Assembly (NCBI GenBank): GCA_012845835.1
Contig: JABAKD010000006.1
Coordinates: 6,998,318 to 7,062,317 of the forward strand
Direction of reading: 5' to 3'
DNA from: Undaria pinnatifida
Taxonomy: Eukaryota > Sar > Phaeophyceae > Laminariales > Alariaceae
DNA: 64,000 bases
Below the pieces are notes generated by a model. It saw only the letters and a list, made by a program, of their open reading frames with translations. It ran no database searches and was not told where the DNA came from. How positions within the stretch are numbered: the stretch's first letter is position 1; each line of letters begins with the position of its first letter. Shown here piece after piece: positions 9,529 through 33,708 of the stretch. The translations under genes were made by a program, and so were the position numbers.

Positions 9529-9780
9529 GAGTCGTTCTACGGTAGCCCCCCCAACTTTTCTTTAACGAAATATCCGGCTTTGAAACCAGCTCCCGGCCGT
9601 ATCTTCTGAAATACGGTGCCCCTTGCCGCCCCGACGACATCGTTCCATAGACCTCTGCAAACATGAAAATGTTTGAGGAGGCTTTTTTCATAGCATCCTC
9701 CCTCGTGATTTTCTAGCAGCCACGGAACGTTCGTTACAGAAAATCGCCGGTTTTGGGGGGGGGCTATCGTTGAAGCAGTC
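9529..9780 (-). mobile_element. Family B MITE copy B1
   Basis: 252 bp in reverse orientation, starting GAGTCGTTCTACGGTAGCCC and ending GGGGCTATCGTTGAAGCAGTC. Flanking tetramers TCCC and CCCC differ at one base. The body holds the family B landmarks AACCAGCTCCCGGCCG and GCGATTTTCTGTAACGAACG (reversed). The family is described at 10118-10378. Confidence 0.7.
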
Positions 9781-9885
9781 CCCCCTTGGTTCGGACGGCA
9801 CCTGTGCTAACGGTATAGAGGGGCACCATTTTTGCCTTCTAAAGGTGGTGGCTTGAGGAGCTACCAGGTATATGCCTTCTGACGA

Positions 9886-10419
9886 GACGCGTGCTACGAT
9901 AGGGGTGCACCACTTTTTTTCTTAATACTACCCCTCAATTTGGGAGCTTAAGACCTATATCCCAAAACTGGTTTGGGGAAAAACGAAGCTGCTACCGGAT
10001 GAAAACTCCCATCGCCTTTCGGTACGCGGCGAGAATCATGCAAACAAAAAAATGACCTAGGACATGATTTCGAACGATTTTTGGGTCAAGGAGGCCCGTC
10101 ATTCAGAAACCATTGTTGACTGATTCTGCGATAGCACCCCCCCCCCAAAAAAAACAGCAATTTTCTTTAACGAACGTTTCATGCCTGCTCGACACAAGGA
10201 AGGATGCAATTGAAAACAAAGTATCCATGTATATATTTTTTCTTGTGTGCAAAGGCCTATCGATCGATGACGTCGGGGTGTCGAGAGACACCGTGCTTCA
10301 GGAAATACGACCGGGAGCTGGTTTTGAAACCGGCGATTTCGTTAAAGAAAGGCTTGGGGGGCTACCGTAGAACGACTATGTTTCAGACGAAAAGTGCTAC
10401 CTCTACGGTAGCACGCGTC
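9886..10419 (-). mobile_element. Family A MITE copy A5, split by B2
   Basis: It starts GACGCGTGCTACGATAGGGG and ends CTCTACGGTAGCACGCGTC. The sequence is continuous except that a complete family B element (10118-10378) sits between AAACCATTGTT and TGTTTCAGACG. Removing B2 and one TGTT restores the usual family A text around AAACCATTTCAGAC. Element A5 is therefore older than B2. An extra family A fragment lies just upstream (about 9810-9864). Confidence 0.75.
10118..10378 (+). mobile_element. Family B MITE copy B2, nested in A5
   Basis: Non-coding element of 261 bp. The left end is GACTGATTCTGCGATAGC; the right end reversed is TAGTCGTTCTACGGTAGCC. It is flanked by a perfect 4-bp duplication, TGTT (10114-10117 and 10379-10382). 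Family landmarks in order are TTAACGAACGTTTCATG, GCTCGACACAAGGA, TATCGATCGATGACGTCGGG, CGACCGGGAGCTGGTTTTGA and GCGATTTCGTTAAAGAAA. The terminal motif GAC-N5-CTACGRTAG is shared with family A. No transposase is encoded; transposition must be in trans. Confidence 0.85.
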
Positions 10420-10424
10420 GCTGG

Positions 10425-10725
10425 CAAGAACTGATTTTGAGTAATAAACTGAAAGTGCGACCCCATTATCAAGCCCATCTATGGCCTACAGGTATGTCGC
10501 ATAAGAAAACAGCATTGACCAAAAAACAAAAAAAAAATGACACTTTCCCCGACGATTTTGGGTTAACCTCCTTTAGAGCCCCTAAATCCGTCCCTATACC
10601 AACTTCAAGTAAATATGCTCCCAAAAAGGGTTTCCAGAGTTGTAAAGGCGTTAAGGAGCCCCATGTCACTCATAAATGATTTTATCTAAAATGTGTTATA
10701 TACCTCAATCGTAGCACGCTGCGTC
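10425..10725 (-). mobile_element. Family A MITE copy A6, split by a TTAA element
   Basis: The left end is missing, as it abuts A5. It keeps CTATGGCCTACAGGTATGTC, GACGATTTTGGGTTAA, and the end CCTCAATCGTAGCACGC. Family F element 10567-10650 interrupts the usual GGGTTAAGGAGCCCC exactly at its TTAA. Confidence 0.65.
10567..10650 (-). mobile_element. Family F: 84-bp TTAA-inserted miniature element, copy F1
   Basis: It lies between TTAA (10563-10566) and TTAA (10651-10654). The host A-element sequence GGGTTAAGGAGCCC is restored by removing it with one TTAA, so insertion and duplication are directly visible. Its ends are CCTCCTTTAG and GTAAAGGCG, with short inverted terminals related to CCCCTTTA. 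TTAA targeting with CCC-start ends suggests piggyBac (Kolobok also uses TTAA). The element is too short to encode anything. Confidence 0.8.
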
Positions 10726-10789
10726 GGACCCTGGACCAAGGGTCCGGCAGGAGGGGGGGTGCGGTACCCTTTTTCTTTACCACAGGACT

Positions 10790-10921
10790 TGAGTCACTCG
10801 CACGAGTGACACTTTTATTTTTTTTTAATTTTTTGGCGCAGCGTAGCTTTGCGCTCCATATATTGCGGGATTTTCTCACCGTCAAAATTAAACCAGAGCA
10901 CGAAAGCTTAATGCCGCAATC
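10790..10921 (+). mobile_element. Family M element with palindromic ends, left part (copy M1)
   Basis: The left end GAGTCACTCGCACGAGTGAC is a near-perfect palindrome by itself. It is followed by TTTGGCGCAGCGTAG, AATTAAACCAG and CACGAAAGCTTAATG, all shared with 11343-11535. The right end is lost where family A copy A7 begins. There is no coding content. Confidence 0.6.
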
Positions 10922-11354
10922 GACGGGTGCTATGCGATAGAGGTGCTGCACACCTTTTTTTTTTCTCAATACTACCCCACACATTAGGGGCGAAAGACAT
11001 GGCATTCTTAACCCAAAAACTGAATAAATGTTGGAGAAAAACAAAACTGCCAAGACCGGATGAAGAACCCCATGGACTAGGTACACAACGAGAATCGTGA
11101 AAACAAAAATGACCTATATTTCCGACGATTTAGGGGTCTCAACTCAAAAACTGATTTCGCAAAAACTGATTTTAGAGGGGAAAAAAAAAAACTGCCAAGA
11201 AGACCGGATGAAAAATCCCATGAACTAGGTACACAACGAGAATCGTGAAGAAAAAAATTGTCCTATAATTTCCGACGATTTGGGGTTAAGGAGCCCCGCC
11301 ATTCAGAAATCATTTCAGACGAAAAAAGTGCCATACCTCTACCGTAGCGCGCGC
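10922..11354 (-). mobile_element. Family A MITE copy A7 with internal duplication
   Basis: It starts GACGGGTGCTATGCGATAGA and ends CCTCTACCGTAGCGCGCGCC. An inner segment of about 130 bp (ACTGCCAAGA-CCGGATGAA through TTTCCGACGATTT) occurs twice, near 11050-11140 and 11190-11285, making the copy about 180 bp longer than normal. Confidence 0.65.
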
Positions 11355-11535
11355 CACGAGTGACACTGTACCTCACTGACAAAAATGCTTTATTTATGAT
11401 GGCGTTCTTTCTTCTTTGGCGCAGCGTAGGTCTTTCCAATTCCATCTCGGGTTTTCGCGTCGTAAAAATTAAACCAGCTAGCACGAAAGCTTGATGATGC
11501 CACGAAAACGAGGGATCACTCGCGCGAGTGACCCC
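11343..11535 (+). mobile_element. Family M element, copy M2
   Basis: The right end is the palindrome ATCACTCGCGCGAGTGACC. The left keeps only CCACGAGTGACACTGTACC because it overlaps the end of A7. The body shares TTTGGCGCAGCGTAG, TAAAAATTAAACCAG and CACGAAAGCTTGATG with M1 and the plan of 34925-35142. Confidence 0.6.
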
Positions 11536-11577
11536 GAGCCACCGCAAAAAATAGGCCCCTTTTAGGCGTCGTCGGCA

Positions 11578-11900
11578 GGACTAATACCCCACTAATACCT
11601 GAAAAATGGCGTCGTCGGCAGGACGATGGTTTTTTGGGGTCGTGGGTTTGAGTCCCACATCCGCCATGATAAACTTTTTCAGACTTTCCCCAATGATCGA
11701 ACCTTAAAAAACACTCTGCCCGGTATCCCCAGGAAATGAAACCGCTTGGATATCGACAGGTCCGCCCGTACATTCGGCCGACCTGCTGTCTATCCCGTCG
11801 TTTCAGGGAGAGAGAGTGTTGTAAGGCTTGGTTTGGGTAAGCTATTGGGTAACCTTTTGCAAGTGGTCAAACGGACTAATACCCCACTAATACCTTAACA
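11578..11900 (+). mobile_element. TRIM-like miniature LTR retrotransposon T1
   Basis: The 3' LTR is 84 bp (11817-11900), begins TGTTGTAAGG and ends CCTTAACA, the TG...CA form of LTRs. A purine run GGGAGAGAGAG (11806-11816) lies directly upstream, as expected of a polypurine tract. Only the last 20 or so bases of the 5' LTR remain (11579-11600). Six bases later comes TGGCGTCGTCGGCAGGA (11607-11623), which starts TGG like a tRNA primer-binding site. A perfect T-arm (GTGGGTTTGAGTCCCAC, 11642-11658) and a terminal CCGCCA follow, so the leader looks tRNA-like. There is no coding capacity; it would depend on an autonomous LTR element. The second copy is at 22640-23001. Confidence 0.75.
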
Positions 11901-11904
11901 CCAC

Positions 11905-12165
11905 GGTGACTGCCGAGTCATCCCGCGGTAGGGGTTGCACTTTCTGCGCCAGAAAGTCCCTGGGCGATTGAGTTCCTCATGTCACGAACTGCCGGTCTAC
12001 GAAGTATATTTCACGAGAAACAATATCTTTTTGGACTAAGGCATAGAAGCTAGGTCGGGTTGTGCGAACGAATGCCTTCGAAGTCATTTTGGTGAGATAT
12101 TGAGTTCCTCATGGGAGGAGAGCTCAGGGGCTAATGCTGCACCCCTACCGTGGGGTGGCTCTCCC
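11905..12165 (+). repeat. Dispersed repeat family K, copy 1
   Basis: Matches 37345-37660 in order: GAGTCATCCC-CGG-AGGGGTTGCA, GGACTAAGGCAT, GGGTTGTGCGAACGAATGCC, GAGATATTGAG and CTCATGCTGCACCCCTACC (here CTAATGCTGCACC). No termini or coding are evident. Confidence 0.55.
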
Positions 12166-12177: not shown

Positions 12178-12417
12178 GACGGGTGCTACGATAGAGGTGC
12201 GCCACTTTTTTTCTTGACACTACCCCTCACTTTTGGAGGTTTAAGACCTCTCCCGAAACTGCCGTCGGACGAAAAGTCTCGTATGGCTATAGGTACACGA
12301 CGAGAATTTCATCGCAAAAAATGGCACTATTTCCGATAGTATTAGTGGGTTGAGGAGCCCTATTATTCAGAAACCATTTCAGCCAAAAAACGGTATACCT
12401 CTATCGTATCACGCGTC
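12178..12417 (-). mobile_element. Family A MITE copy A8 (complete, with target duplication)
   Basis: The cleanest family A copy: 240 bp, starting GACGGGTGCTACGATAGAGG and ending CCTCTATCGTATCACGCGTC, flanked by perfect TAGC (12174-12177 and 12418-12421). Family A consensus, read in the opposite direction, runs GACGCGTGCTACGATAGAGG, TATACC, T-run, GGCTCCTTAACCCAAAATCG, TACCTAGGCCATGGGATTTT, AAGCTCCCAAATTGAGG, AAAAAGTGGTGCACCTC. It is non-coding. The terminal motif GAC-N5-CTACGRTAG is the same as in family B. Confidence 0.85.
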
Positions 12418-13821: not shown

Positions 13822-14074
13822 GACTGATTCTACGATAGCCCCCCCTCCCAAAACCAGCGGTTTTCTTTCACGGACGTTTCGTGGCTGCTCGATACGAGAA
13901 AGGATGCTATGAGAAGCATGTCTTTACCATATGTTCTTGTTCGCGAAGGACTATCGACCGATGACGTCGGGGTGGCAAGAGGGGCACCGTTTTTCAGGAG
14001 ATGCGGCCGGGAGCTGGTTTCAAAACCGGCGATTTCGTTAAAGAAAAGTTGGAGGGGCTACCGTAGAATGACCC
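13822..14074 (+). mobile_element. Family B MITE copy B3, inserted in the tail of C1
   Basis: 253 bp from GACTGATTCTACGATAGCCC to GGGGCTACCGTAGAATGACCC, flanked by perfect TTCA (13818-13821 and 14075-14078). The left flank is a T-rich run and the right flank continues TTCATCCTCCGGCGG, so B3 split the poly-T end of reversed family C copy C1. Confidence 0.85.
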
Positions 14075-14240
14075 TTCATCCTCCGGCGGATGGGGCAAAA
14101 TAAAGCTCAAGCTCGCACCACACTTACTTCCACGTATTTTCGTACGCGTCGTGTGTCGATTTTAACTCGATTGCCTTCGCAACCCAGCGCTAGCTGGCGT
14201 GTCCTTCGGATCCCACGATAGCGATAGCGCGAGCTGTCCC
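14075..14240 (-). mobile_element. Family C retroposon-like copy C1
   Basis: Reverse-orientation copy beginning CATCCTCCGGCGGATGGGGC and reaching GAGCTGTCCCTA. The A-rich tail, seen as poly-T, lies at 13797-13817 beyond B3. The family is described at 38834-39061. Confidence 0.7.
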
Positions 14241-14254
14241 TATGGGTGGTCCTC

Positions 14255-14740
14255 GGTAAAATGGTTTTCTGAGTAACGATGGCTCCTTAACCCGAAAACC
14301 GTCGGGGGAAAAAAAAAATAATAGCCATTTTTTTTGCATGATTGACGGATTCTACGATATCCCCACCTCAAAAGATCAGCGTTTTTCTTTAATGGACGTT
14401 TCATGGCTGCTCGACACGAGGAAAGACCATAACAGCAAAATGTTTCCATATATTTTATTGTGTGCAGAGGTCAATCGAATGATTAGGTTGGGGTTTCAAG
14501 GGACACGGTATTTCAGGAGATACGACCGGGAGCTGGTTTCAAAACCGGCGATTTCGTTAAAGAGACGTTCGGGGGGCTACCGTAGAATCAGTCGATTCTC
14601 GTTGTGTACCTGGGCCTTGGTATTTTTCATCCGGTAGCAATTCTATTTTTCTCCAAATATCAGTTTTTGGGGTTAAGACGGACATGTCTTAAGCTCCCAA
14701 ATTGAGGAACCTCAGAAAAAAAAGTGGTGTAGCACGCGTC
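14255..14740 (+). mobile_element. Family A MITE copy A9, split by B4
   Basis: The body runs from AAAATGGTTTTCTGAGTAACG, interrupted after TTTGCATGATT by B4, and resumes at GATTCTCGTTGTGTACCTGG to the end AGTGGTGTAGCACGCGTC. The left terminus is lost. Removing B4 plus one GATT restores the normal GCATGATTCTCGTTG. Confidence 0.75.
14344..14593 (+). mobile_element. Family B MITE copy B4, nested in A9
   Basis: 250 bp. The left end is GACGGATTCTACGATATCCC; the right end reversed is GACTGATTCTACGGTAGCCC. The 4-bp target duplication GATT (14340-14343 and 14594-14597) is exact, and the uninterrupted target is known from other family A copies. Confidence 0.88.
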
Positions 14741-14765
14741 CGACCTTGTTGCTTTTACCATGCAT

Positions 14766-14768
14766 GGC

Positions 14769-14803
<35 letters not shown>
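14766..14803 (+). repeat. (TAG)12 triplet repeat
   Basis: A perfect run of TAG/AGT triplets of about 38 bp. Confidence 0.85.
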
Positions 14804-14927
14804 GAATTTCGATCTCTACCACGAAATAGACGCTGGAGCAAACGCCCCGGCTTAATTTGGGGTGGCCCGCCAATAGCCCGTACAATTTTTTTCCTGCATG
14901 TTTGCACGCCTTCTTCTATTGATGAGC

Positions 14928-15405
14928 TGGAAGATTCCAGGGCATTCCCCGCGATTAATCCCGCTGGTCGTAGAATCGCGGCGAACCAACCAACCACAAC
15001 AGAGCTACGAAAAAGAAATGAACAACAATAGCAAAAACACCATAAGAAAGACTAAACCACGGCGAATCGAATGACGGCGTTTTTTTTGCTTTTTTTTTCA
15101 TTTTATCCAAGTTGGAACCGCGGTATGACCGCAGGATTTTTACCACGCACGGACCGCGGTATGACCGCGGGATTTGGCTTTCGAAATCCCGCGGTAAAAA
15201 TCCAGTGGTCATACCGCGGTTCCTACTTGTTGTTGGAAAAAAAAGAAAAAAAGAACATCGACATTCGATTCGCCGTGGTTTCGTCTTTCTTACGGTGCTT
15301 TTCGCCAAAGTTTATTCCCTGCATTCGTAACTCTGTGTGGTTGATTCACCGCGATTCTAAGATCAGCAGGATTAATCCCGGGGAAGGCCCTGGAAAATTC
15401 CCGCG
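14928..15405. repeat. Long imperfect palindrome (foldback element)
   Basis: Nested inverted segments give a hairpin with arms of about 200 bp. Pairs include CCAGGGCATTCCCCGCGATT (14936) with its near complement at 15375-15394; AACCACGGCGAATCGAATG (15056-15074), perfectly complementary to CATTCGATTCGCCGTGGTT (15262-15280); and GGAACCGCGGTATGACC (15115) with GGTCATACCGCGGTTCC (15208). The loop carries a further hairpin, ACCGCGGGATTT / AAATCCCGCGGT. No coding. This looks like a foldback-type transposon or a hairpin-generated inverted duplication. Confidence 0.75.
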
Positions 15406-15671
15406 GGGTGGGCCAATACTCCCGAAATCAACCTAGCTTGTGGACGTCGTCCTACGATGATGGAAGAAGGGATATATACTCGTGTGAATATTACTTTTCG
15501 GCGGACATTATATGTGTTTTTCGTGGATGACCGGGGGGGGGGCTCTCCTTATCCCAGTACCGTTGGACAAACTTTTACGAACCCCTACAAGGTAAGGGTT
15601 GGTATAAGCCTTCCACCCCTACCCAAAGTACGCTATTTCATGTACACGTTTTTGATTACGGGGCTCTGGAA

Positions 15672-15756
15672 CGCCTTTACAGCTGGAAACCCATTTTGGA
15701 GAAAAATTACTTGGAATTAGTATATGGAGCGATTTTGGGGGCCCCTAAAAGGGGGG
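15672..15756 (+). mobile_element. Family F miniature element, copy F2
   Basis: Runs CGCCTTTACAGCTGGAAACC ... GGGGGCCCCTAAAAGGGG, the same order as 46508-46589. The TTAA sites are degraded here. Confidence 0.6.
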
Positions 15757-15927
15757 TAAGTCGGTATATATCGGTCGCACGGGCTGAAAAAATGTCTATA
15801 CGCCCCAACGGGTGCATATAAGGCCGCGGCAGCGCCATCCACCGTCGGCGCCTCTAAGCGGCCGGGTGGACGGGGGCGGGAGGGGGAGGGGGGGAGGGTG
15901 AAGGGGGATGGCGTAAGAGTATTGAGC

Positions 15928-16168
15928 GGGGACACAGATTGTCCCCTGCAGGTCTGCAGATTGAGCAGGTCCTCACTTTCTTAGCCTTCGAGGAGACGTC
16001 GCTTTATTCGATTCCACCAGAGCCCCGGATGGCTTCTGAGACCGGAGGCACGTGCCTCCGATCTATTTCCTGACTATCCCGAATATGAAACGCCAACCTT
16101 ATCATACGAAACCCATCCAAATTATCTCAATTCGGATCATTACAGGCCTTTCGAGGCCGTATCTTAAC
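15928..16168 (-). repeat. Dispersed repeat family E, copy E1
   Basis: Reverse copy of the element at 18673-18938: GGGGACACAG, CTGCAGGTCTGCAGATTGAG, the GGAGGCACGTGCCTCCGAT palindrome, and AGGCCTTTCGAGGCCGTATC. Described at 18673-18938. Confidence 0.65.
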
Positions 16169-16518
16169 AAGGGGGGGAGGGGGAAGTGTGGGGGCGGAGG
16201 AAGGGGGGGCGTCCTGTCCAAAGACTGAAACCTGGGTTTGGCCATCATCGTCTTGAAGTTTGTGAGCCTTCCAATGGCCGTCACAAGCTAGCGTAAGGCC
16301 GCCCTGGCTTCTTCATCTTGTTGCGTTCTTCCCCCAGTAGTGCTATTGATGCACTTGATACCCTCTATGAGCCCAATGCCGTCTTTGGTCAGTTCATAGG
16401 GTCTGCTAGTATGGTGTTTTCTTTTTCCTTTTTCCTTTCCTTGCTTCCTCTTCTTGTACCAGGTTGTTTTTTCCTTTCTTTTATTTTCCTTTCCTTTTTC
16501 GCTCTCTGTTATTTTTTT

Positions 16519-16770
16519 TTCTTTTCTTTTCTTTTCTTATTTCTTTTCTTTTCTTTTCTTTTCTTTTCTTTTCTTTTCTTTTCTTTTCTTTTCTTTTCTT
16601 TTCTTTTCTTTTCTTTTCTTTTCTTTTCTTTTCTTTTCTTTTCTTTTCTTTTCTTTTCTTTTCTTTTCTTTTCTTTTCTTTTCTTTTCTTTTCTTTTCTT
16701 TTCTTTTCTTTTCTTTTCTTTTCTTTTCTTTTCTTTTCTTTTCTTTTCTTTTCTTTTCTTTTCTTTTCTC
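16519..16770 (+). repeat. (TTTTC)n pentanucleotide array
   Basis: About 50 almost perfect TTTTC units over 250 bp in a wider pyrimidine-rich stretch from 16405. The long open frames (Phe-Leu-Ser on +, Lys-Arg-Glu on -) arise because a 5-bp unit is open in every frame. Confidence 0.92.
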
Positions 16771-16776
16771 TTCTTT

Positions 16777-17295
16777 GTTTTCGTTTCTTTGTTTTTTCCC
16801 ATTGACTTGAGTCTGACGTGCGTGTACGTAGTGATAGGTACTACGTGTAATATATACGTGGTAGTCTTTTCTGGGTGGCAACCGTTGTAGTCGGTTTTTC
16901 AGGCACGAGTAGTGCGACGTATGTACCAGCATGGACCTGGCACATCGTAGGCTGACTCCCGATTTCACTTTTATATGTTTCTGGTGGAGGCATGCATTGC
17001 GTCAGCTGTGATATATGCGTGTACCACCTTTGGTTCGTTTGTGTTTTTTTGCCCTGGGGTTTTCCTCAGCTCCAGAGTGACTCTAGAGCCTGTCCTGTTA
17101 GCACGGGCGTGATTATGCGAGTTAATGTTAGAACAACAACAACAACCACACACTAAGCCATACACCTCAATCCCACCCCGTATGGTAATGGGGCTAGGTT
17201 AGGGCTTGCGCCGCTGTTCGGGTTGGGGCCTGGAACCAGGAACATAGGTATGACACTGCTAAATAGTACCTGGTAGAGTATTTAAAATAGGGGTA
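16777..17295. other. Unassigned intergenic DNA
   Basis: No gene is seen. The segment at 17170-17275 (CCCACCCCGTA, GGGTTGGGGCCTGG-ACCAGG) resembles 62165-62240, so it is part of a low-copy repeat. Confidence 0.3.
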
Positions 17296-17299
17296 CATG

Positions 17300-18110
17300 G
17301 CTTATATATACACTACCAGGCAGGTGCTACCACCTCGTTACCTATCCAACCACCCATGCCGTAGCTCCAGTTCATTTATTTCCGCCCCCGCCCCCCCTTC
17401 CCCCCCCCCCCGCCCCCTCCTTCCCCACCACCCGCACCATCGCCTTGACCTAGCACGTATAGCAAAGTTCCTCCCTGTTCATGCCACCTAAAGGGGTTTG
17501 ATTCCCCCCCCCCCCCCCCCCAATTCCCCCCCCCCCCCCCTCTTTTTGCTCTCTCCCGCCTTCCCCTCTAAATTCAAAATCTGCCAGAGAAATAAACACT
17601 ACCAGACAGTTGATATCACCTCATTACCTTTCTAGCCATCCATGGGGTAGCTTCAATTCATACCCCCCCCCCCCCCCCCCAATGCCCCCTCCTTCCCCAC
17701 CATCCGCACCATCGCCTGGCTCCACGCGCATAGCAAGCTCCTAACATATATACATTTATGCGACCTAAAGCTGTTGGAAATCTTGTTCTCCTCGCCCCCC
17801 CCCCCCCTTTCGAACACTCCGCCCTCTCTCCTCACTAGTTGTACGACTTACAGGATGTACATGATAAACTGATGCATTCCTTCCACAACCGTCACATTTA
17901 TCCCCTTAACTTAAAGGATTTATAGTTTCTGCGCACAGATGAAGTTGACCCCGCCTCCCCCCCCCCCCGCTCCCTCTTGTTCAAACCCCGGCCCCCACGC
18001 CCTTGAAATCTCCGCCCTCCCCTCACCGGTTACACGACTTACAGGATACACTTGATAAACTGATGCATTTCCTTCCACAGCTGTCAGATTTTGTCCCCCT
18101 CAAAAACGGG
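17300..18110. repeat. C-rich duplicated block
   Basis: Two related units lie in tandem. CTACCAGGCAGGTGCTACCA (17314) corresponds to CTACCAGACAGTTGATATCA (about 17600), and CCGCACCATCGCC recurs near 17430 and 17705. ACGACTTACAGGATGTACAT (about 17843) corresponds to ACGACTTACAGGATACACTT (about 18035). C homopolymers of 10-20 bases separate the conserved pieces and differ in length, so expansion is by slippage. Confidence 0.6.
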
Positions 18111-18144
18111 TTTTGTAGTTCCCGCGCACAGATTGGTTAACATC

Positions 18145-18325
18145 ACCCTGTTGACCCTGGTACAAGCTACACTGTAGTTGCAAGGGGACTCGCCGACCTA
18201 GATCCTTGATGAGGACACACACCCAATAATACGCGCGATCGGAGCATCACACACAGCTTGCAAAAGATGAGTTTCGATGAAATCTTCGATCTCAACAGCT
18301 GGAGTGTATGCTTATTTTTAGAATA
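18145..18325 (+). repeat. Dispersed repeat family J, copy 1, with a conserved short frame
   Basis: Matches 58545-58655: GAGGACACACA-CCC-TAATACGCGCGATCGG, CATCACACACAGCTTGCAAA, then an ATG opening MSFDEIFDL. The distant copy opens MSFDKIFDL. Downstream the frames diverge. The short frame could be a relic of a coding element or chance. Confidence 0.5.
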
Positions 18326-19091: not shown

Positions 19092-19188
19092 GTGCGAAAT
19101 GCCGGTCGAAGTGCCTCCTTAATGGCGTCATAATAATGACGTCGCCGGGGTGAAACGGTTGGAAAAAACAATAATAATGTGTATAAAA

Positions 19189-19940
19189 GAGGTATACCCT
19201 TTTTTGGCTTTGACCCGGGAGTGAAAATTGGGGGTACCCCGCTACCGTAGCATTGATCTAAAAATAGGTATACCCTTTTTTGGCTTTGACCCGGGAATGA
19301 AAATTGGGGGTACCCCCTACCGTAGCCTTGATCTAAAAAGAGGTATGCCCTTTTTTGGCTTTGACCCGGGAGTGAAAATCAGGGGTACCCCCCTACCATA
19401 GCCTTGATCTAAAAATAGGTATACCCTTTTTTGGCTTTGACCCGGGAGTGAAAATTAGGGGTACCCCCCTACCATAGCCTTGATCCAAAAAGAGGTATAC
19501 CCTTTTTTGGCTTTGACCCGGGAGTGAAAATTAGGGGTACCCCCCTACCGTAGCCTTGATCTAAAAAGAGGTATACCCTTTTTTGGCTTTGACCCGGGAG
19601 TGAAAATTAGGGGTACCCCCCTACCATAGCCTTGATCTAAAAAGAGGTATACCCTTTTTTGGCTTTGACCCGGGAGTGAAAATTAGGGGTACCCCCCTAC
19701 CATAGCCTTGATCTAAAGAGAGGTATACCCTTTTTTGGCTTTGACCCGAGAGTGAAAATTAGGGGTACCCCCCTACCATAGCCTTGATCTAAAAAGAGGT
19801 ATACCCTTTTTTGGCTTTGACCCGGGAGTGAAAATTAGGGGTACCCCCTACTATAGCCTTGATCCAAAAAGAGGTATACCCTTTTTTGGCTTTGACCCGG
19901 GAGTGAAAATTAGGGGTGCCCCCCTACCATAGCCTTGATC
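19189..19940. repeat. Ten-copy 76-bp tandem array with MITE-like unit ends
   Basis: Ten units begin near 19189, 19265, 19340, 19416, 19492, 19567, 19645, 19720, 19795 and 19871. Each reads GAGGTATACCCTTTTTTGGC, then TTTGACCCGGGAGTGAAAAT, TAGGGGTACCCCCCTACC, then GTAGCCTTGATCTAAAAA. The start resembles the family A subterminal GAGGTATACC-T-run-GGC. The end reversed, GATCAAGGCTACGGTAG, fits the GAC/GAT-N5-CTACGRTAG terminus of families A and B. Units are about 95% alike, so the array is recent or homogenised. Confidence 0.85.
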
Positions 19941-21041: not shown

Positions 21042-21302
21042 AACGCGTGCTACGATAGAGGTATACCTTTTTTTTTTGGCGGAAATTGTTTCTGAATGAC
21101 GGGGCTCCTTAACCTACTAATACTATCGTCGGAAATACGCCCCATTTATTTTGCATCTTTCTCGTCGTGTACCTAGGCCATGGGATTGTTCATCCGGTAA
21201 CTAGCAGTTTAATTTTTGTCCAAATCACAGATAGGTCTTGAGCTCTAAGAGTGAGGGGTAGTATTAAGAAAAAAGTGGTGCGCCTCCATCGTAGCGCGCA
21301 TC
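21042..21302 (+). mobile_element. Family A MITE copy A10, with an empty-site relative
   Basis: 261 bp, starting AACGCGTGCTACGATAGAGG and ending CCATCGTAGCGCGCATC, flanked by CTGA (21038-21041 and 21303-21306). The flanks belong to a repeat whose second copy at 27121-27212 reads CTCCCTGAATAAG without the element, so the 4-bp duplication is confirmed against an unoccupied site. Confidence 0.85.
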
Positions 21303-21445: not shown

Positions 21446-21702
21446 GACTGGTTCTACGATAGCTCCCCCCCAAACCAGCGATTTTGTTTAACGAACGTTT
21501 CATGGCTGCTCGATACAAGGAAGGATACTATTGAAAACACTACATCCATGCATTTTCTTGTGTGCAAAGGTCTATCGATCGATGACGTCGGGGGGGGTGT
21601 CGAGGGACACGGTATTTCAGGAGATACGATACGATCGGGAGCTGGTTTTGAAATCGTCGATTTCGTTAAAGAAAAGTTAGGGGGGCTGCCGTGGAACGAC
21701 TC
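21446..21702 (+). mobile_element. Family B MITE copy B5
   Basis: 257 bp from GACTGGTTCTACGATAGCTC to GGGGCTGCCGTGGAACGACTC with perfect ATTA duplications (21442-21445 and 21703-21706). All family B body landmarks are present. Confidence 0.85.
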
Positions 21703-24858: not shown

Positions 24859-25628
24859 CTTGTGACGTCCAGCATCCACCGCTCCACCCGTAGTACCAAC
24901 AGAAACTCCGTCCCGTCAATCATGGACAGGAGGCCAGCGTTGTGACTGAAAGCCTCGCCGTTTTTCACTGGCGACGAGGGCGGCGGCTCTTCCAGCGTTG
25001 CCGAGAAGTGCATCGTTGGCGTGTCTGAAAATTGGACCGTCTTCGAGCGGGTACAGCCAGACACCCGCTGCGGCTCCGAGCACGGCGTCGCTGACGGCTG
25101 TGACGCTGTCGGTTGTGGAGGTGAAGGCTGTGACGGTGGCAGCCGTAACGACTGTGACGGCGGCAGCAGTGACGGTTGTGACATTGCCGGCTGTGACGGT
25201 GGCGGTCGTGGCGACTGCGAAGTTGCCGGCTGTGACATTGCCGGCTGTGGCGGTGGCGGCCGTGGCGGCTGCGAAGTTGCCGACTGTGACATTGCCGGCT
25301 GTGACATTGCCGGCTGTGACATTGCCGGCTGTGACGATGGCGGCCGTGTCGGCTGTGACGGCGGCGTGCATGTTATGGTGAACGCCGGCGTCATTGTCGA
25401 CGCGGCGGCGTCCACTGAGCCCATTGAACCCTCCGCGCCCGCCGGTGGCGGCAACGGCAGGACGGGCGTACGGAGGATCACCCATACTACGTCGCTGGAA
25501 TAACACACGCCTCCGGTGGAGTTCTTGAGAACCTTCACGGTAGATGAGGAGTGGTTGTGACCGTTGTCGAGGTAAAAACGCTCAGCCGCTTGGGCATCGG
25601 ACTTGGTGCTCCGGTCCACCCGCATCAT
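24859..25628 (-). pseudogene. Copia integrase C-terminal / linker region
   Basis: The frame reads SSTVKVLKNSTGGVCYSSDV, equivalent to the copia K-x-W-D-ETR-V--SRDV-F motif after integrase. A Pro/Gln/Ser-rich stretch of QPAMSQPATSQ units (25080-25360, triplet- and pentamer-based expansions) follows, then VSGCTRSKTVQFSDT. Confidence 0.7.
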
Positions 25629-26133
25629 GCCTGGATAGAAAAAGGCACCAACTGCAGATCCGGCAGTCGCCCGAAGAAAACTTCGTGCGGTGACCGCCGC
25701 CCGGTGTTCGCCTTGGTCGCGGAGTGGTTGAAACGTTCAGAAACCCACAGGACAGCCTCGAGCCACAGACGGTTGCCACTTGCGTCAACAAACGGGATTT
25801 TGCCGAGGTCGACGCCCGGGAACAGTCTTCCAATCTCGAGATGCACCGCATGGCCGCCCTTCATAGCGCGCCAAATCGCACTCTCGACAACCGCGTTCGC
25901 TGCGGCTTCCCTGGGGCCGTGCACTCGCGGTGAATCCCGGCAGAGTCGCAGTAGTCCACATAGTCACGGCTGATGAACTCCCCGCCGTCATCAGTGAGAA
26001 AGCAGCTTGGCCTCCCCATGCCGTCCATGTCGGCCAGAAACTTCTGGACGTACGCGATAGTCTCAGACTTTCTCCTCATACCGTATGGCCGCGACCATCT
26101 CGAAGAGCTGTCCACAAACATGATCGGATACAC
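25625..26133 (-). pseudogene. Copia integrase core, frameshifted
   Basis: The DDE core is recognisable: first Asp in MFVDSSSRWSRPYGM, second Asp in CFLTDDGGEFISRDYVDYCD, followed by ECTAPGKPQ. After a frameshift near 25900 the Glu-bearing NAVVESAIWRAM, then SATKANTGRRSPHEVFFGR (the GR-P-E-F-G motif) follow. Confidence 0.85.
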
Positions 26134-26166
26134 CGACCCGCCCAGAGACGCCTCGTAGGGGCGGGA

Positions 26167-26424
26167 CTAATCGATATGGACGGTCTCCATGGGACTCACC
26201 GAGCGCGATGTGGCCCTCCGCAGTGTCCCAGCACGTCTTCCCTTAGCCTCCAAGCAGCCACCACACGACTGCAGCACACCCGTCAGGGTGATCCCATGTT
26301 GCTGAGCCGTCTCTCTCAGAAGGCGTTCGTCCTGGTGGCCGGAGAAGACGTGAAAGTGATTAACATCGGTCATCTTCTCGGGCTTTTCTACTGTGAATGG
26401 GCGCTTTCCCGGGGCAAGAAGAGA
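26167..26424 (-). pseudogene. Copia GAG-pre-integrase zinc-binding domain
   Basis: HVFSGHQDERLLRETAQQHG followed by SCGGCLEAKGRRAG gives the H-H-C-C zinc finger, then SPMETVHID leads to integrase. The frame extends upstream to about 26424 (LLAPGKRPFTVEKPEKM) before a stop. Confidence 0.8.
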
Positions 26425-26430
26425 TGCAGC

Positions 26431-26711
26431 GGTACCTACGCTCTACCAGTGAGAAGAGTATACTTATCAATCTCTAAGCTTGCGCTGCCCCGGGGTTGAG
26501 TGCGGGGGAGGGGGGGGAACCTTGCAATCAGTCTCATCGTGACCATCCATGAGCTTAACGTCCGTGAACACGCTCATGTTTGGCGCCTGCATGCCGGAGG
26601 TAGGAACAAGAGGCCTAACCCCTGCCGCGCTCCTTGCTGTATTCCTGGGTAGGGCTCTGCAAGCGGTTTGAGAGGTGGGAGCAGCACTGACGGTTCTGCA
26701 CGCACTTCAGC
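26431..26711. other. 5' flank of the copia relic
   Basis: The - strand frame near 26520-26600 (MSVFTDVKLMDGHDETDCK) may be a remnant of upstream polyprotein, but I cannot assign it to gag or protease. Confidence 0.2.
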
Positions 26712-26715
26712 TGAA

Positions 26716-26964
26716 GACTGATTATACGATACCCTTCCCCCCCAAAACCGGCGATTTCTTCAACGAACGTTTCATGGCTACTCGACACGAGCAACGATGC
26801 TACGGAAAACAAATCTCCATTTCTTTTCTTGTTTGCAAAGGACGATCGAACGATGACGCCGGGGTGGCAAGAGGCACCGTATTTCAGGAGTTACGGCCGG
26901 GAGGTGGTTTCAAAACCGGCGATTCCGTTAAAAAAAAGATGGGGGGGCTATCGTAGAACGACTC
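26716..26964 (+). mobile_element. Family B MITE copy B6
   Basis: 249 bp from GACTGATTATACGATACCCT to GGGGCTATCGTAGAACGACTC with perfect TGAA duplications (26712-26715 and 26965-26968). Confidence 0.85.
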
Positions 26965-27059
26965 TGAAGTGGGAGGGGGGAAGCACGAGTCCGTAGGCAC
27001 TACTACACCAGTAACGGTGGGCGGGAAACTTGAGTCGGTAGGTACTATGCCGCTCACGG

Positions 27060-27212
27060 CAGGCGGGGAGCCTAAATCCGCGGCCATGCCCCCTTCTACC
27101 CATCGGTGGGAAACACAAATATTGGAACTCCCTGAATAAGAATTTCATATAACGATCTTCGTGGATACTTGACAGTTACATATATCAGACTTTGATACGA
27201 GCAAATAGGCAA
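27060..27212 (+). repeat. Duplicated segment, empty-site relative of 20985-21385
   Basis: AACACAAATATTGGAACTCC, CTGAATAAGAATTTCATATA and GATCTTCGTGGATACTTGAC match the flanks of MITE A10 without the element. This supplies the unoccupied target for A10. Confidence 0.65.
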
Positions 27213-27758
27213 TCCTAGACAACTTTATCCCTTACAATAATCCAGAATTGCGGTAAGGCGGCTCGTTCCGTTTATATGGTTGCGCTGAAGCGTGCACTTT
27301 TTTTTTTTTTTTTGCCTTTTTTGTTTCCTGAATAACGAAGGGGCCCCTTAAAACCAAAAAAATCGTCGGCGTCTGCAAGGAACGCCTCCTCCAGATCACC
27401 TATCTCTGTGATCAGTCAGGTCGCGAATTATTCTACACCCACCCCATTTACTCCATCTAGAACAAACCGATCCCCCGGCCCTTTCGGGACGTTTAATGAT
27501 CTTCCCACGCTACGGGGACGGTTAAGAATCAGAAAACATGCACTCGAGATGAAACCTTTTCGATATTTCGCTAACGGACAACCTCGAGAAAGACCTTTCG
27601 CGCCGAGCGAATATAATATGCAGGTTAGCCATGAGGGACCGCCAGGCCGCGAAGGAAAGGCAGGAAGACGCCAGAAGAGGACTGCGGCCAGTGACCTGGG
27701 TGGGGATGGAATGCGTTGATGAGACTATCATATCGGTGGTAGTAGCTAACAAAAAAAA
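27213..27758. other. Unassigned DNA with a family A fragment
   Basis: 27292-27372 keeps a T-run, TTTCCTGAATAACGA, GGGGCCCCTTAAAACCAA and AAATCGTCGG, a decayed family A piece. The rest shows nothing recognisable. Confidence 0.3.
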
Positions 27759-27998
27759 GTATACAACGGCAGCTTGCGCTGATATGGAGTAGTAACGGAG
27801 ACCGCCGCGGTAGGGACAGCTCGTGCTGTCGCCACCACGGAAGCTGAATTGAGAAGGACACGCCAGCTAGCGCTGGATTGCGAACACAATTGGGTGAAAT
27901 TGACATACGACGTGTTGTATAAAAATACGTGGAAGTGTGGTGAGCTTATTAAGCTTTATTTTTCCTAATCCGGACCGGAGGATTTAAAAAAAATAAAA
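27759..27998 (+). mobile_element. Family C retroposon-like copy C2
   Basis: Full-length but diverged: GTATACAACGGCAGCTTGCG, GCCAGCTAGCGCTGGATTGC, ATACGTGGAAGTGTGGTGAG, AAGCTTTATTTTTCC and an A-rich end. See 38834-39061. Confidence 0.65.
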
Positions 27999-28015
27999 GG
28001 AGCTTAAGTGAAATT

Positions 28016-28125
28016 GCGTGTGTTGTCTTCACATTAAGCCGTTGTTTCTACCTACAACATCAGTACACCCAGAGTCCGTGCCGATTCTTCATCCTGGAGA
28101 GGGACAAGTTCTGTGGTCACAGGAA
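28016..28125 (-). repeat. Dispersed repeat family G, copy 3
   Basis: Reverse relative of 47515-47672: TGTTGTCTTCACATTAAGCC, GTTTCTACC, and TTCTGTGGTCACAGG. Confidence 0.45.
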
Positions 28126-28390
28126 CAGAGTAAAGCAAACAGTCGCAATAATCCATTAAGGGTAAAACAAATGAAATGCGAGCGTACCGCGTACGAGAAC
28201 ACATCAAATCAAGAAACACCTTAAAAAAAAGACAAGAAAGAAGAAAAGAGAAAACAGAGAAAAACAAAAAAGTGAGAAACAAGAAAAAAAGAAAACAAAA
28301 GAAAACAAAAGAAAGAAAACAAAGCAAAACAAACGAACGACAGGTGTTCTGAAGAACGTGATGCAAGAAGATCTTGTCGGGGGGGGGGGG

Positions 28391-28737
28391 TGTACTCAGT
28401 TTGTTCATGGCCGTAGTCGTACGACCATAGACCCTCGCATCCCTACCATGCCGGGACGGAGGACGTCGGGTTTTCACCAACCAGACAGACATTGCTTGCA
28501 CCAAGCGCGAAGCGCCGTGAGGCGTCCGGCGAGTCACATGAAGGGTGAACTGCATCCTTCTAAGAACCGCTCGCAAGACGGACTTCGGCACCTTCTTGTG
28601 CCTAGTTTCTTGCTTATGGAGATGACAGCGCCAATGAGTTACTTTGTTTTCTGATGCGGCCACTCTAGAGACAGCAATGAATTGGCATTACTATGTAACT
28701 GCCTCGTGGGCGCCTTACCATATTCACAAGACCGTGT
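28391..28737 (-). repeat. Dispersed repeat family D, copy D1
   Basis: Begins TGTACTCAGTTTGTTCATGG directly after a G12 run and extends to GTAACTGCCTCGTGGGCGCC. Nearly the full length matches 30952-31287 in reverse, including CACGGCGCTTCGCGCTTGGT and CTAGGCAC-type segments. The family end always abuts a C/G homopolymer. Confidence 0.65.
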
Positions 28738-28785
28738 AGGGAAAAGAAAAATGAAGAAATGGTCGGCAGAGGGTCATAAGAGAGA

Positions 28786-28787
<2 letters not shown>

Positions 28788-28816
<29 letters not shown>

Positions 28817-28877
28817 GCTACTACTACTACTACTACTACTGCTACTACTACTACTACTACTACTGCTGCTGCTGCTG
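28788..28877 (+). repeat. (TAC)n triplet array
   Basis: About 30 TAC/ACT triplets with TGC interruptions over 90 bp. Confidence 0.88.
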
Positions 28878-28879
28878 GA

Positions 28880-29670
28880 AGAGGGATATCCGATTCATGT
28901 TTTGGCGTGTCATCTGCATGTATGTGCTCTTTGCATGAGCAATAGACCAACCGTCCATCTCTGTTGAGATCCAAAAAGGTCTGGTTTATATGTTATTCAT
29001 ACACTGTCATGTGATTCAGAAACTGTCGTATGATTCGGAAACTGTAGTGTGATTCGACGATTCGGGGCTGGTGATTCGGAAACCGTCGTGCGATCCAGGA
29101 AACGGCACGTACATACCTGACGACAGTGAAATGAGCCACGAAATCTGTGTAGTACGTGTGTGTACAACGATGGTAGCACCCGATCTCGCGGCACGCGTTG
29201 ACCTGGTTCGCTGTGATCAGATAACGGCGCGATTGCATAATGAGTACGGTAGTTCTTAGAAGCGCACTACTGGGATTCGATGTGGTGATTGCCTGTTCAG
29301 TCTGTGTTTTGGGTTGGTCCTTGTTCTACCTCAAGCATAGGGACACGTCACACGCGAGGCTTTGCTGTAGTGTCTACGTACAGCAGGAAAGCAGCTTGCG
29401 CTGCGGAGGACGTGTGGTGTGACGCGTTAGATTCCTTGCCAGTACGAGAGCCGGGGCTTGTAGCTTGGCCGTAACCAAGCTACCACCACCCCCACCCCTC
29501 CCTGGTCACTCTCGTACCCTGACTCAATCAAGCAAGCCTCTCACGATAATAGTAAGAAAAATCTACCCGCCTGGGTTTCACTCAGCTGACTGCTGGTCAG
29601 CGAAAGACACACCCGTGCCCCGTCTGTGGACCATACCTTCAGGGATCTCCACGGCACATCGTTACAGCAG
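28880..29670. other. Unassigned intergenic DNA
   Basis: Near 28995-29095 a unit of about 17-25 bp, TGATTCGGAAACTGT(C/A)GTG, is repeated four or five times. Otherwise nothing is recognised. Confidence 0.35.
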
Positions 29671-30012
29671 TATGAGGAAGGAACGTACTGAACGCCCAAA
29701 TGTTGGAGGTGTCTCTATTAAAATTAGGAACGGTGCTCTGTCTCGAAAGAGATGCGTGGCTAATGGTCAAATGACTAAGGCAAGCAACAAAAGAGTACTC
29801 CCCCCCTTAACATGCCCCCCTTAAGATGCCCCCCCCCCCCCCCCCCCTTGGTGCATTACCCCCCCTAGTGCACCCCGTCCCCCCCGCTCGTGCATCATTT
29901 TCTAGTACATCACACACACTTCTCCTCCCCGTACTACATCGCCCTTTCCCCAAAGCCCCGTGGTGCATCACCCCCCCCCCCCCCCGATAGTTGGCATCAC
30001 CTCCCTACCCCC

Positions 30013-30260
30013 GACTGATTCTACGATAGCCCCCCCCGAAACCTGCGGTTTTGTTTAACGAACGTTTCATGGCTGCTCGACACAAGGGAGGATACGATTG
30101 GAAACAAAGTATCCATATGTTTTCTTGTGTGCAAAGGCCTATCGGTCGATGACATCGGGGTGTCGAGAGACACCGTATTTCAGGAAATACGACCGGGAGC
30201 TGGTTTTGAAACCGCCGATTTCGTTAATGAAAAGTTTCGGGGGCTACCGTAGAACGATTC
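30013..30260 (+). mobile_element. Family B MITE copy B7
   Basis: 248 bp from GACTGATTCTACGATAGCCC to GGGGCTACCGTAGAACGATTC. Flanks are CCCC on both sides (30009-30012 and 30261-30264), compatible with a 4-bp duplication, though the target is C-rich. Confidence 0.8.
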
Positions 30261-30951
30261 CCCCCCTGGTGCCTCACTCCCCCCCCCCCCCCCCCGATAC
30301 ATCGCCTCCCCCGGTGTGTTAGACGTGGAGATGAGGAAACTAGACGAGTGTGGCACGGAGAAGCTTGGTACGCTAGATAGTAGCGAGACAACGGTCGCTA
30401 CCCTAGGAGACACACGGTTGGCCACAGACGGCCAAACAGGAAGGAGATGAAACGGGCAGTTTACAAAAAGGTGACGCGCATGAAGAAGACGCGTAACGAG
30501 CGCTCAGATGCTGTAGGTGTCTCTATAAGGGGTAGGAGCGGTGATCCTTCTCGGATGGGGTGCGCCGTCATGGTCAAATTATTAAGGCAATCAACAAATG
30601 AGTACGCCCCCCCCGCCCCCCCCCGCTTCCCCTCGAGCATCACCTTCCCACCCCCGCCCCCATATATCATAAAAATTAAAATACACTCCAGCTCCATATA
30701 TTATAGCGGTTGGCCTCGGTTGGCACCGACGCTGTAAAACATCGTATGTATATTGGGGTTGGCGTTGGTTTGGCAACGACGCTGTGAAAGATGCCAATCA
30801 CTGCGTGAGATAGACAGCCAGGGGTACTGTTTTTTGTTTTGTTTTTTGTTTTGTTTTTTTCTGGCGGTCACCGTGATGGTTGTCGATTTGGATCATATTG
30901 TGCGGGGCGGGGAACCCTAAATCTGCACAAGAGTATTGATCGCATCACGTA

Positions 30952-31287
30952 GAGTGTGAACATGGCAAGGCACCCACAACGCAGTTACATAGTAAAACCC
31001 ATTGTTGTCTCTGGAGTAGCCACACCAAAAAATAAAATAACTCGTTGGCGCTGTCATCTACAAGCAAGAAACTAGGCACAAGAAGGTGCCGAAGTCTGTC
31101 CTACGAGCGGTTCTCGGAAGGATACAGTTGACCCTTCGTGCGACTCGCCGAACACCTCACGGCGCTTCGCGCTTGGTGCAAGCAATGTCTGCCCTGTTTC
31201 GTGAAACCCTACGTGCTCCGTCCCGGCATAGCAGGGATGCAAGGGTCCATGGTCCTACGACAACGGTCATTCACAAACTGAGTACAC
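30952..31287 (+). repeat. Dispersed repeat family D, copy D2
   Basis: The longest copy of the family: ACGCAGTTACATAGTAA, GCGCTGTCATCTACAAGCAA, GAAGGTGCCGAAGTCTGTCC, CACGGCGCTTCGCGCTTGGT, then CACAAACTGAGTACACCCC into a C-run. The short open frame through it is not conserved among copies. Confidence 0.65.
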
Positions 31288-32211
31288 CCCCCCCCCTAGT
31301 GCATCACCCCTACACACACAGTAAAATACCCCCCCCCTTAGTGCATCACGCCCCCCCCTATAACATCAACCGCCTCCCCTTCAGTGCATCACTTCTCCCC
31401 CCCCCCTCTAGTGCATCCTCTCCGCGACCCCGTTGTGCATCACCCCCCCCTCCTAGAGCATCGCCCCCCCCTCTCTTAGTGAATAACTCCCCCCCCCCTA
31501 GTACATCACCCCCCGCCCCTGGTGTATCACCCCCCCCCCCCGCTGGTTCTCCGTCTCGAAAGAGACGCGCGGCCGATGGTCAAATGATTACGGCAAGCAA
31601 CAAATGAGTACAGATCCCCCCTCCTAATGAATCACGCCCCCCCCCCCCGCCCCCAGTACATTCCTCCCCCTTCTGCTAGTGCATAACCCCCCCCCCCTCC
31701 CCCCTTAGTGCATCAACCCCGCCGCCTCCCTTGGTGCGCCCCCCTTCTTGCCCCCAAACATATACCCCCCCCCTGGTACATCAGTGGTAGTCTAGAGTCT
31801 AGAGTACCCGTAAAACACGCATGACAGCACACCCCGGGGACAATATTGGGACCTTTGGAAACATTCTCACCGGGTTCACCGTTGTGGAGGGGGGTGCTAT
31901 CTCTGGTGTACCCCGGGTGGTAAGCCTCATGCACGCCCCCCCCCCCCCGAAGCTAGGATGTGTGACAACGAGGGGTTGTCAGCGCGAGGGGGAGATGACA
32001 ACGGCATCCATGATTGCTGCGGAATGTGAGCAGACTCGGCTGGGTTGCAGGGGCGGGTGATAGTTGGGGGGGGGGGGCTAACATAGGGTGTGATAGCGAT
32101 AACAAGGGGGTGTGATACCGGCTACAATACGTGCGTAAGACAAGGGGTGTGATAACACGCGAGAGGCTTCGGTGTGAACCCAGTTTTATTTTCTATTCGC
32201 ACCGCAATGCC

Positions 32212-32471
32212 GACGCGTGCTACGATGGAGGTATACCTTTTTTTGGCGAAAATGATTTCTGTATGACGGGGCTCCTTAACCCAAAATCGTCGAAAATACG
32301 CCCCATTTATTTTGTATTATTCTCGTCGTCTACCTTGGCCATGGGATTATTCATCTGGTAGCTAGCAGCTTTATTTTTCTCCAAATCAGTTTTTGAGAGG
32401 ATCATGTCTTAAGCTCCCGAATCGAGGAAACCTCAGAAAAAAAGTGGCGAACCTCTATCGTAGTACGCGTC
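32212..32471 (+). mobile_element. Family A MITE copy A11
   Basis: Complete at 260 bp with long perfect-type termini: GACGCGTGCTACGATGGAGG and CCTCTATCGTAGTACGCGTC. Flanks TGCC and TTTA do not match, so the target duplication has been lost or one flank was rearranged. Confidence 0.82.
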
Positions 32472-33176
32472 TTTAATGTGATAGTAAGACCCACGCTTGA
32501 AGCCCAGGAGCTCTGCAGCACGACATACACCCGCCTTGCTGCGGTGCAGGAGAACGTTAGAAGGCACCCTCCCGGCGTTCGACGCTTTCAAACATACGGG
32601 TAGCATTTTTTTCGTCAAAGTAGTTCGGGGCGTAGGACACGGCAGGGACGCACCACTGACCAAGTGTGTTTCTGCAAGCCTCCTTTTCTCGCTTGCTGGG
32701 GAGAGCTCCATGCCTCGCCCCACGGTAGTATTCTCATGCAGTTTTGTTCTCGCTGAAGTTAGACCTATCGTATTAGATGGTGTACAGACACGTACTAGAT
32801 ACTACAGCACAAATTCACCCACTCACGCATACATACGTACATCTACTTGGAAGGAGACGATATGCGTAATGAATTATTTTCGATGTTAGAGGGAGACGAT
32901 ATCTAGCTGTCGAAGGGAGGAGGAGGAGGACGAGGAGGAGGACGAGGAGTGAGAGCCGAGCCGTTCCGCCAGGACCATGCCACGCTCCTTATCGCGCGGC
33001 ACGGTCCTCCTTGCATTGTAGTCCGGGCATCAACTGTTGTCATCCTCCAATCACCGCGCAGTAATCGGCGCTGGAATCGTCATTTTTCATTGACAGATAA
33101 GGTCAATTTTCTCCCCTGAGGTCCAGAGGGTGGCAATTAGCCCTTTGGGGCTTCAGGGCAAAAAAAAAGCCAGGGT
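32472..33176. other. Unassigned intergenic DNA
   Basis: Open frames on both strands at 32433-32889 show no domain I recognise. A GGA-rich run lies at 32917-32950. Confidence 0.25.
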
Positions 33177-33414
33177 GCAAGGCACATGCTACCATACGAG
33201 AGGTAATAAGGTATACCTTTTTTTGGCGAAAATGGTTTCTGAATGACGGGGCTCCTTAACCCAAAATCGTCGGAAAGTTTAGGACATTTTTTTCTTTGGT
33301 ATGATTCTCGTTTGTATACCTAGGCCATGGGATTTTTCATTCAGTAGCAGCAGTTTTTTTTTTCTCCCAAGTCAGGTGTTTGGGGGTTAAGAAAGACATA
33401 CATGTCTTACGCTC
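33177..33414 (+). mobile_element. Family A MITE copy A12a (head-to-head pair)
   Basis: Reads AAGGTATACC, T-run, GGCTCCTTAACCCAAAATCG, TATACCTAGGCCATGGGATT, then stops near ATGTCTTACGCTC where A12b begins in the opposite direction. Confidence 0.7.
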
Positions 33415-33702
33415 GACGCGTGCCACGATAGAAGGTGCATGCACCACTTTTTTTCTGATTGCTTCCTCAATTTGGGAGCTTAAGACATGTCGTAAAACCC
33501 CCAATAAATAAGTCGGAGAAAAAATGAAGAAAAAAAACTGCTACATACCACATGAAAAATCCCACGGCCTAAGTATACAACGAGAGAGAACCATGAAATA
33601 AAAAAATGGCCCTGTAATTTCCGACGATTTGGGGTTAAGGGAGCCCCGTCATTCAGAACCAAATTCAGACGAAAATCGCTACCTCTATCGTAGCATGCGT
33701 TG
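33415..33702 (-). mobile_element. Family A MITE copy A12b (head-to-head pair)
   Basis: Starts GACGCGTGCCACGATAGAAG, ends CCTCTATCGTAGCATGCGTT. Together with A12a it forms a roughly 520-bp interrupted palindrome. Confidence 0.75.
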
Positions 33703-33708
33703 ATTACT

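Follow-up and report, generated by a model that had tools for sequence, protein, structure and literature searches.

The stretch analysed here (the window) comprises 64,000 bp of the genome of the brown alga Undaria pinnatifida (contig JABAKD010000006.1, C55:6998318-7062317, in an assembly of 511,146,479 bases and 68 contigs). It holds copies of three families of short repeats, designated A, B and C, and the ends of all three read 5'-GAC-N5-CTACGRTAG or nearly so. A and B had been described before from a sequence-only reading as two families of miniature inverted-repeat transposable elements (MITEs) having this terminus in common, with unrelated bodies and 4-bp target duplications, and a common, possibly undescribed transposase had been proposed for them.

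Three families of short elements

Family B is represented in the window by seven elements of 248-261 bp bounded by paired ends, and family A by eleven copies ended at both sides plus A fragments (Table 1), some of the A ends having been placed by eye. The copies of A in the window diverge from their consensus by 12-33% and those of B by 9-15%; since, in addition, B sits inside A twice, A is the older family. When the two bodies were aligned, the best Smith-Waterman score was 18, against a median of 19 for shuffled sequences, as expected if they are unrelated. Family C was discovered in the genome sample described below. It is ~268 bp long, its spacer is mostly CAAGG or CCAGG, followed by CTACGGTAG and GGG, and in the window it is found as one old copy plus fragments. 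The comparison of bodies covered A versus B, and the A/B and C profiles claimed no common ends in the assignment order used. Among the sampled copies of A, B and C (56, 25 and 17, respectively, window included, copies longer than 330 bp omitted), none is less than 9% from its own consensus.

Table 1. Positions of family A, B and C copies, and of an array derived from a family C end, in the window
Feature	Position	Strand	Flanks or duplication
A3, diverged family A copy	3615..4031	+	
A4, diverged family A copy	4235..4491	-	
A7, diverged family A copy	7668..7922	+	flanks cgcg/cgtg, 3/4
B1, family B MITE	9529..9780	-	flanks tccc/cccc, 3/4
A1, family A copy split by B2	9886..10419	+	own flanks acga/gctg, no match
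B2, family B MITE inside A1	10118..10378	+	duplication TGTT
A11, family A copy with internal repeat	10922..11355	+	no own duplication, aatc/acga
A12, family A MITE	12178..12417	+	duplication TAGC
B3, family B MITE	13822..14074	+	duplication TTCA
A14, partial family A copy split by B4 (natural empty site)	14258..14740	-	
B4, family B MITE inside A14	14344..14593	+	duplication GATT
Tandem array, 76-bp unit x 10, from family C right end (GATC-AAGG-CTAYGGTAG)	19185..19940	.	
A21, family A MITE	21042..21302	-	duplication CTGA
B5, family B MITE	21446..21702	+	duplication ATTA
B6, family B MITE	26716..26964	+	duplication TGAA
B7, family B MITE	30013..30260	+	duplication CCCC, within C run
A32, family A MITE	32212..32471	-	flanks tgcc/ttta
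A33, family A MITE	33415..33701	+	flanks gctc/gatt; abuts A piece 33182-33413 and TAC microsatellite
Family C MITE copy, old	34875..35201	-	flanks not matching
A36, diverged family A copy	36268..36566	-	
A45, family A copy	45856..46143	-	

Abundance of the common end

With at most one mismatch allowed, GAC-N5-CTACGRTAG is matched 27 times in the window, while dinucleotide shuffles lead to an expectation of 0.28 and none of 100 shuffles reached 27; the inner 9-mer CTACGRTAG alone is found 23 times, against 0.62 expected. Nine of the 27 matches are exact, and the genome-wide mean predicts ~2.3 per 64 kb (our own arithmetic). Over the 511-Mb genome the exact pattern occurs 18,307 times (9101 + 9206), compared with 130 (65 + 65) for a reversed-pattern control. 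The longer, family-specific ends occur 1156 + 1108 times for A (21-mer), 449 + 444 times for B (25-mer) and 672 + 662 times for C (21-mer), and the reversed controls of all three gave 0. These genome counts take exact matches only and so exclude mutated ends, the true number being higher. The excess over controls, in the window and in the genome, thus upholds the earlier description of two MITE families with a common terminus.

The genome sample consists of stretches L002-L045, ~268 kb in all, which partly overlap, lie on contig C1 and were picked for holding the motif, so that the sample is non-random. Sample and window together contain 173 ends with at most one mismatch, of which 155 could be placed (A 94, B 37, C 24) and 18 belong to none of these families, at least one of the latter being counted twice through overlapping loci. 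Long open reading frames (ORFs) adjoining the unplaced ends were inspected by eye, with no search made; nothing transposase-like was seen, and one frame (L026) resembles a long interspersed nuclear element (LINE).

Target duplications of four bases

All eight exact duplications listed in the sequence-only reading are present (those of B2 to B7, A12 and A21), which amounts to 6 of the 7 B elements and 2 of the 11 A copies; B1, absent from that list, has flanks that agree at three of four bases. Flanks were compared at lengths from 2 to 12. For family B, 27 of 28 bases match at length 4 and 25-52% at the other lengths; for family A, the corresponding values are 22 of 44 (23 of 44 if the right end of A7 is moved 2 bp inward) and 13-34%. 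Among random pairs of sites 250 bp apart, 26% of bases are identical, and all four bases agree in 0.87% of cases. The CCCC of B7 lies within a run of C, so the length of this duplication is ambiguous. The scarcity of exact duplications in A fits the age of its copies, as these are 12-33% diverged: by our own arithmetic, ~2 intact duplications are predicted in the eleven A copies ((1-d)^8, summed) and 2 are seen, and ~2.7 are predicted in the seven B copies ((1-d)^8, summed), where 6 are seen.

In the sample, 135 pairs of ends lie 60-700 bp apart with at most three mismatches; neither the window nor L001 is counted among them, and chance pairings are included. Identical 4-bp flanks were found in 22 of these pairs, and identical flanks of 3, 5, 6, 7 and 8 bp in 1, 1, 0, 1 and 0, respectively, with 9 at length 2, about the number given by chance. 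A clean subset was restricted to 230-320 bp, to a total of no more than one mismatch and, for each left end, to its first mate; these 28 pairs yielded 12 exact matches at length 4 (82 of 112 bases), none at length 3 and one at length 5. With family labels assigned from the ends in a simple way, exact 4-bp duplications are present in 6 of 13 A pairs, 4 of 6 C pairs, 0 of 4 B pairs and 2 of 5 pairs with mixed labels. Four is the length that stands out in the window and in the sample; other duplication lengths were looked for in the genome sample and not seen.

Nested insertions agree in part with this picture. The cleanest case is B4 in A14, where removing B4 together with one GATT restores the A consensus across the junction. 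At L041, a C element nested in A has the duplication TTAT and extra T-rich bases.

Anatomy of the ends

The ends were aligned for 29 copies with exact duplications (58 ends; 21 copies from the sample and 8 from the window). As the copies were chosen by the motif, the conservation of the ends is partly built in, and the variable spacer and the absence of target choice are better supported. Positions 1-3 and 9-17 carry 1.1-1.9 bits and positions 4-8 carry 0.3-1.1 bits, while the information content does not exceed 0.09 bits in the four duplicated bases or 0.20 bits in the bases next to them; there is thus no target consensus. The five-base spacer varies from family to family and, within B, even from the left end (GAC-TGATT) to the right (GAG-TCGTT). 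The segment CTACGGTAG forms a perfect palindrome of odd length, as would befit a site bound with two-fold symmetry.

Search for a transposase

A six-frame Pfam search of window positions 1-30 kb found no transposase domain; the only matches were Ty1/copia RVT_2, an integrase core below cut-off, a teneurin-type epidermal growth factor (EGF) domain and a sub-threshold glue protein. Ten single window ORFs gave no match, neither a transfer RNA nor an Rfam match was found in the window, and one stretch compared with phages had no match. In the whole genome, searches with five Pfam families (PF01555, PF02992, PF18758, PF01609 and PF13843) returned nothing bracketed by the ends described here. PF01555, which we take to be the methyltransferase-type domain that the giant Sola1 element of Ectocarpus is reported to have, was unmatched in this genome although 11 of 14 control genomes did match. 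PF02992 (Transposase_21) and PF18758 were also unmatched; no control genome matched either family, which makes the PF02992 result a weak one. Matches to PF01609 lie at five places, four loci of which were read; the two best are 95% alike, and no end with at most one mismatch lies within ~1.5 kb on either side of them. The piggyBac-like PF13843 matched at eight places; three of these loci were read, and in none do such ends enclose a transposase match, though in one of them (L052) A-like ends lie between two inverted piggyBac-like frames.

A repeated transposase gene was observed at L046 and L047 (G000:C32, C56), two 3.5-kb stretches that are 95% identical and hold open frames of 311-312 amino acids matching DDE_Tnp_1; their element ends were not found, and no A, B or C ends lie near.

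The end pattern was matched once in viral contigs (L001), a match judged to be chance from its length and the size of the collection, and not at all in the other genome contigs searched. Among the literature matches listed there is no brown-algal MITE with these ends, and those listed for the bare 9-mer CTACGATAG are apparently unrelated papers.

Discussion

We put at roughly three in four the probability that the three families are non-autonomous cut-and-paste MITEs, mostly of 250-270 bp, that were cross-mobilised by one transposase recognising a bipartite end. The support for the common transposase of the sequence-only reading is indirect: a bipartite end and a duplication length are common to A and B, and family C, the third, obeys the same rule. 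According to this model, a single transposase lineage, presumably of DDE type, would bind the near-palindrome CTACGRTAG at element positions 9-17 and, spanning a fixed-length spacer, cleave at the GAC that ends the element; joining of the ends to target strands with a 4-base stagger would then leave the 4-bp duplication. Such an enzyme would act in trans, so that any DNA between two such ends could move, whatever its body. The source elements have probably decayed with age, or may be gone, because no sampled MITE copy comes closer than 9% to its consensus. If one transposase did serve the three families, they would offer a clear example from nature of cross-mobilisation that depends on the geometry of the ends and not on overall similarity.

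Several points weigh against this interpretation. The single transposase is deduced from the ends and is not itself observed, and neither an autonomous element nor an end-bracketed transposase was found in the ~268 kb of sampled stretches (overlaps included). In the sampled loci on contig C1, paired ends at a distance of 0.7-9.9 kb never combine at most three mismatches in all with an exact 4-bp match. Three pairs more than 0.7 kb apart in the window do have a 4-bp match with at most three mismatches (9529-12161, 9886-11355 and 14344-33701); no enclosed transposase is visible in them, and they are held to be chance or rearrangement. A composite element at 9886-11355, with ACGA on both sides, was rejected, as C and A pieces lie inside it and the match may be chance. 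Among the genome matches listed, eight same-family pairs 1.6-18.7 kb apart have no exact duplication, and the best of them (L061, flanks matching at three of four bases) is made of two complete B copies; this reading of the long pairs leaves out one further pair within 20 kb (C1 4.25-4.26 Mb). The duplications themselves are imperfect. In family A the exact ones are a minority in both window and sample, and none is seen among the sample's four clean B pairs, whose flanks match at 11 of 16 bases. The nested copies show the same, as B2 in A1 restores the A consensus only with three extra bases, and a B element nested in C (L009) has no exact duplication.

Given a common transposase, the question is to which superfamily it belongs. 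Sola1 makes 4-bp duplications, the length found here, where no target consensus is seen. Our guess is that Sola1 is its most likely known home, on account of that length and of its presence in the brown alga Ectocarpus, for which PMC12477816 gives one Sola-1 family of 1989 copies, 2 of them intact, and 51 unassigned DNA families. The likeness consists in duplication length, and the missing PF01555 match, set beside the control genomes, would speak against it. We give a little less than an even chance to the tentative assignment of the transposase to a known superfamily that makes 4-bp duplications, Sola1 being the likeliest; it would contest only the word 'undescribed' in the earlier proposal.

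That the transposase belongs to an undescribed superfamily seems improbable to us. It would be a nameless eukaryotic lineage with an end of fixed geometry (GAC, a free 5-bp spacer and the near-palindromic CTACGRTAG) and 4-bp duplications made without target choice, which had mobilised at least three unrelated MITE families and left ~18,000 exact ends. The ends and targets fit neither Ginger1/2, Sola2 nor piggyBac; yet what sets it apart is a comparison with few published descriptions, covering part of the known superfamilies. Slightly less probable still is membership in EnSpm/CACTA or the Chapaev-type elements. These can make 4-bp duplications, but the CACTA end signature is CAC and the ends here start with GAC, and PF02992 is unmatched in the genome, a point of little weight given the controls.

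Two readings would do away with the common transposase altogether. Two or more unrelated transposases whose ends had converged would account for the unrelated bodies of A and B and for the differing spacers, but we think this quite unlikely, as twelve fixed positions stand in register in three families that also have the same duplication length. That the copies are satellite or recombination products with flanks matching by chance is hardly credible: C and A ends do form tandem arrays (in the window and at C1:13778465-13779046), but dispersed copies have exact 4-bp flanks far above the 0.87% of chance, and the empty site of B4 in A14 contradicts it.

Tandem arrays and neighbouring repeats

The 76-bp array of the window contains ten matches, one per unit, to the last 53-54 positions of family C, and the array on C1 (L059, in genome G000) repeats an A end in units of 62 bp. 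Satellites may thus arise repeatedly from these element ends, and the arrays built of A and C ends would join the known satellites born from transposons.

In the region 33182-34035, A33 adjoins a truncated, oppositely oriented A copy and a TAC microsatellite, neighbours that may be the reason for its lost duplication. A decayed Ty1/copia pol lies on the minus strand at 23881-26190, with RVT_2 near 23.9-24.1 kb and the integrase core near 25.9-26.2 kb; GC-rich tandem repeats fill 24.4-25.4 kb between the two matches. The teneurin-type EGF match, above the Pfam cut-off, is on the plus strand at ~5193-5276, adjoins pyrimidine-rich repeats and is possibly an exon. Another dispersed repeat, with an A-rich tail, occurs at 34147-34350, 38857-39060 and 59822-60025, in part at 56670-56761 and as an inverted piece at 14161-14261; it looks like a short interspersed nuclear element or the end of a LINE. 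An inverted 240-bp repeat (28381-28620 and 31057-31296, 87% complementary, 2.4 kb apart), not of A, B or C type, has related copies near 52.2 and 54.7 kb.

Comparison with known systems

Elements of the piggyBac group target TTAA. They resemble the present families in the 4-bp length, and piggyBac-like domains occur in this genome, but TTAA is found in 0 of the 29 exact duplications. Ginger1 and Ginger2 also make 4-bp duplications; they differ, as described in PMC2836005, in having TGTNR ends, where those here begin with GAC, and targets CCGG/CCGT or RTATAY, where no target consensus is seen here, CCGG/CCGT (Ginger1) being found in 0 of the same 29. For Sola2, again of 4 bp, the duplications described in PMC3627910 are AT-rich (AWWT, ATAT, AAAT and ATTT), whereas the 29 examined here do not keep to AT-rich sequences and include CCCC, ACCT, CTCC, GCGA and others.

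With known MITEs, families A, B and C have in common that they are short, with bodies of ~250-270 bp in which no coding capacity was seen (no transposase domain in the part of the window searched in six frames), that they have inverted ends and a target duplication of fixed length, 4 bp, lost in many single copies, mostly of A, and that they reach high copy numbers and are nested in one another. They differ in that inverted identity is mostly confined to the bipartite end, the body-proximal end sequences of B and C being different at their two sides.

This difference matters for classification. The Repbase grouping of non-autonomous elements, as given in PMC4455052, takes equal duplication length and an alignment of positions 1-11 with at most one mismatch. 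The consensus ends of A and B differ at 4 of these 11 positions, and those of A and C likewise, all of them in the spacer, while the duplication length is equal; the rule as written separates families that have all 12 fixed positions in common. In brown algal genomes a large share of the repeats is unassigned ('Unknown' repeats are listed at 36.1% of the Undaria assembly in PMC7058681), and such families would be brought together by a bipartite end whose spacer is free, despite the 11-base rule. As MITEs, the elements described here are ordinary; their common bipartite end is the interesting part.

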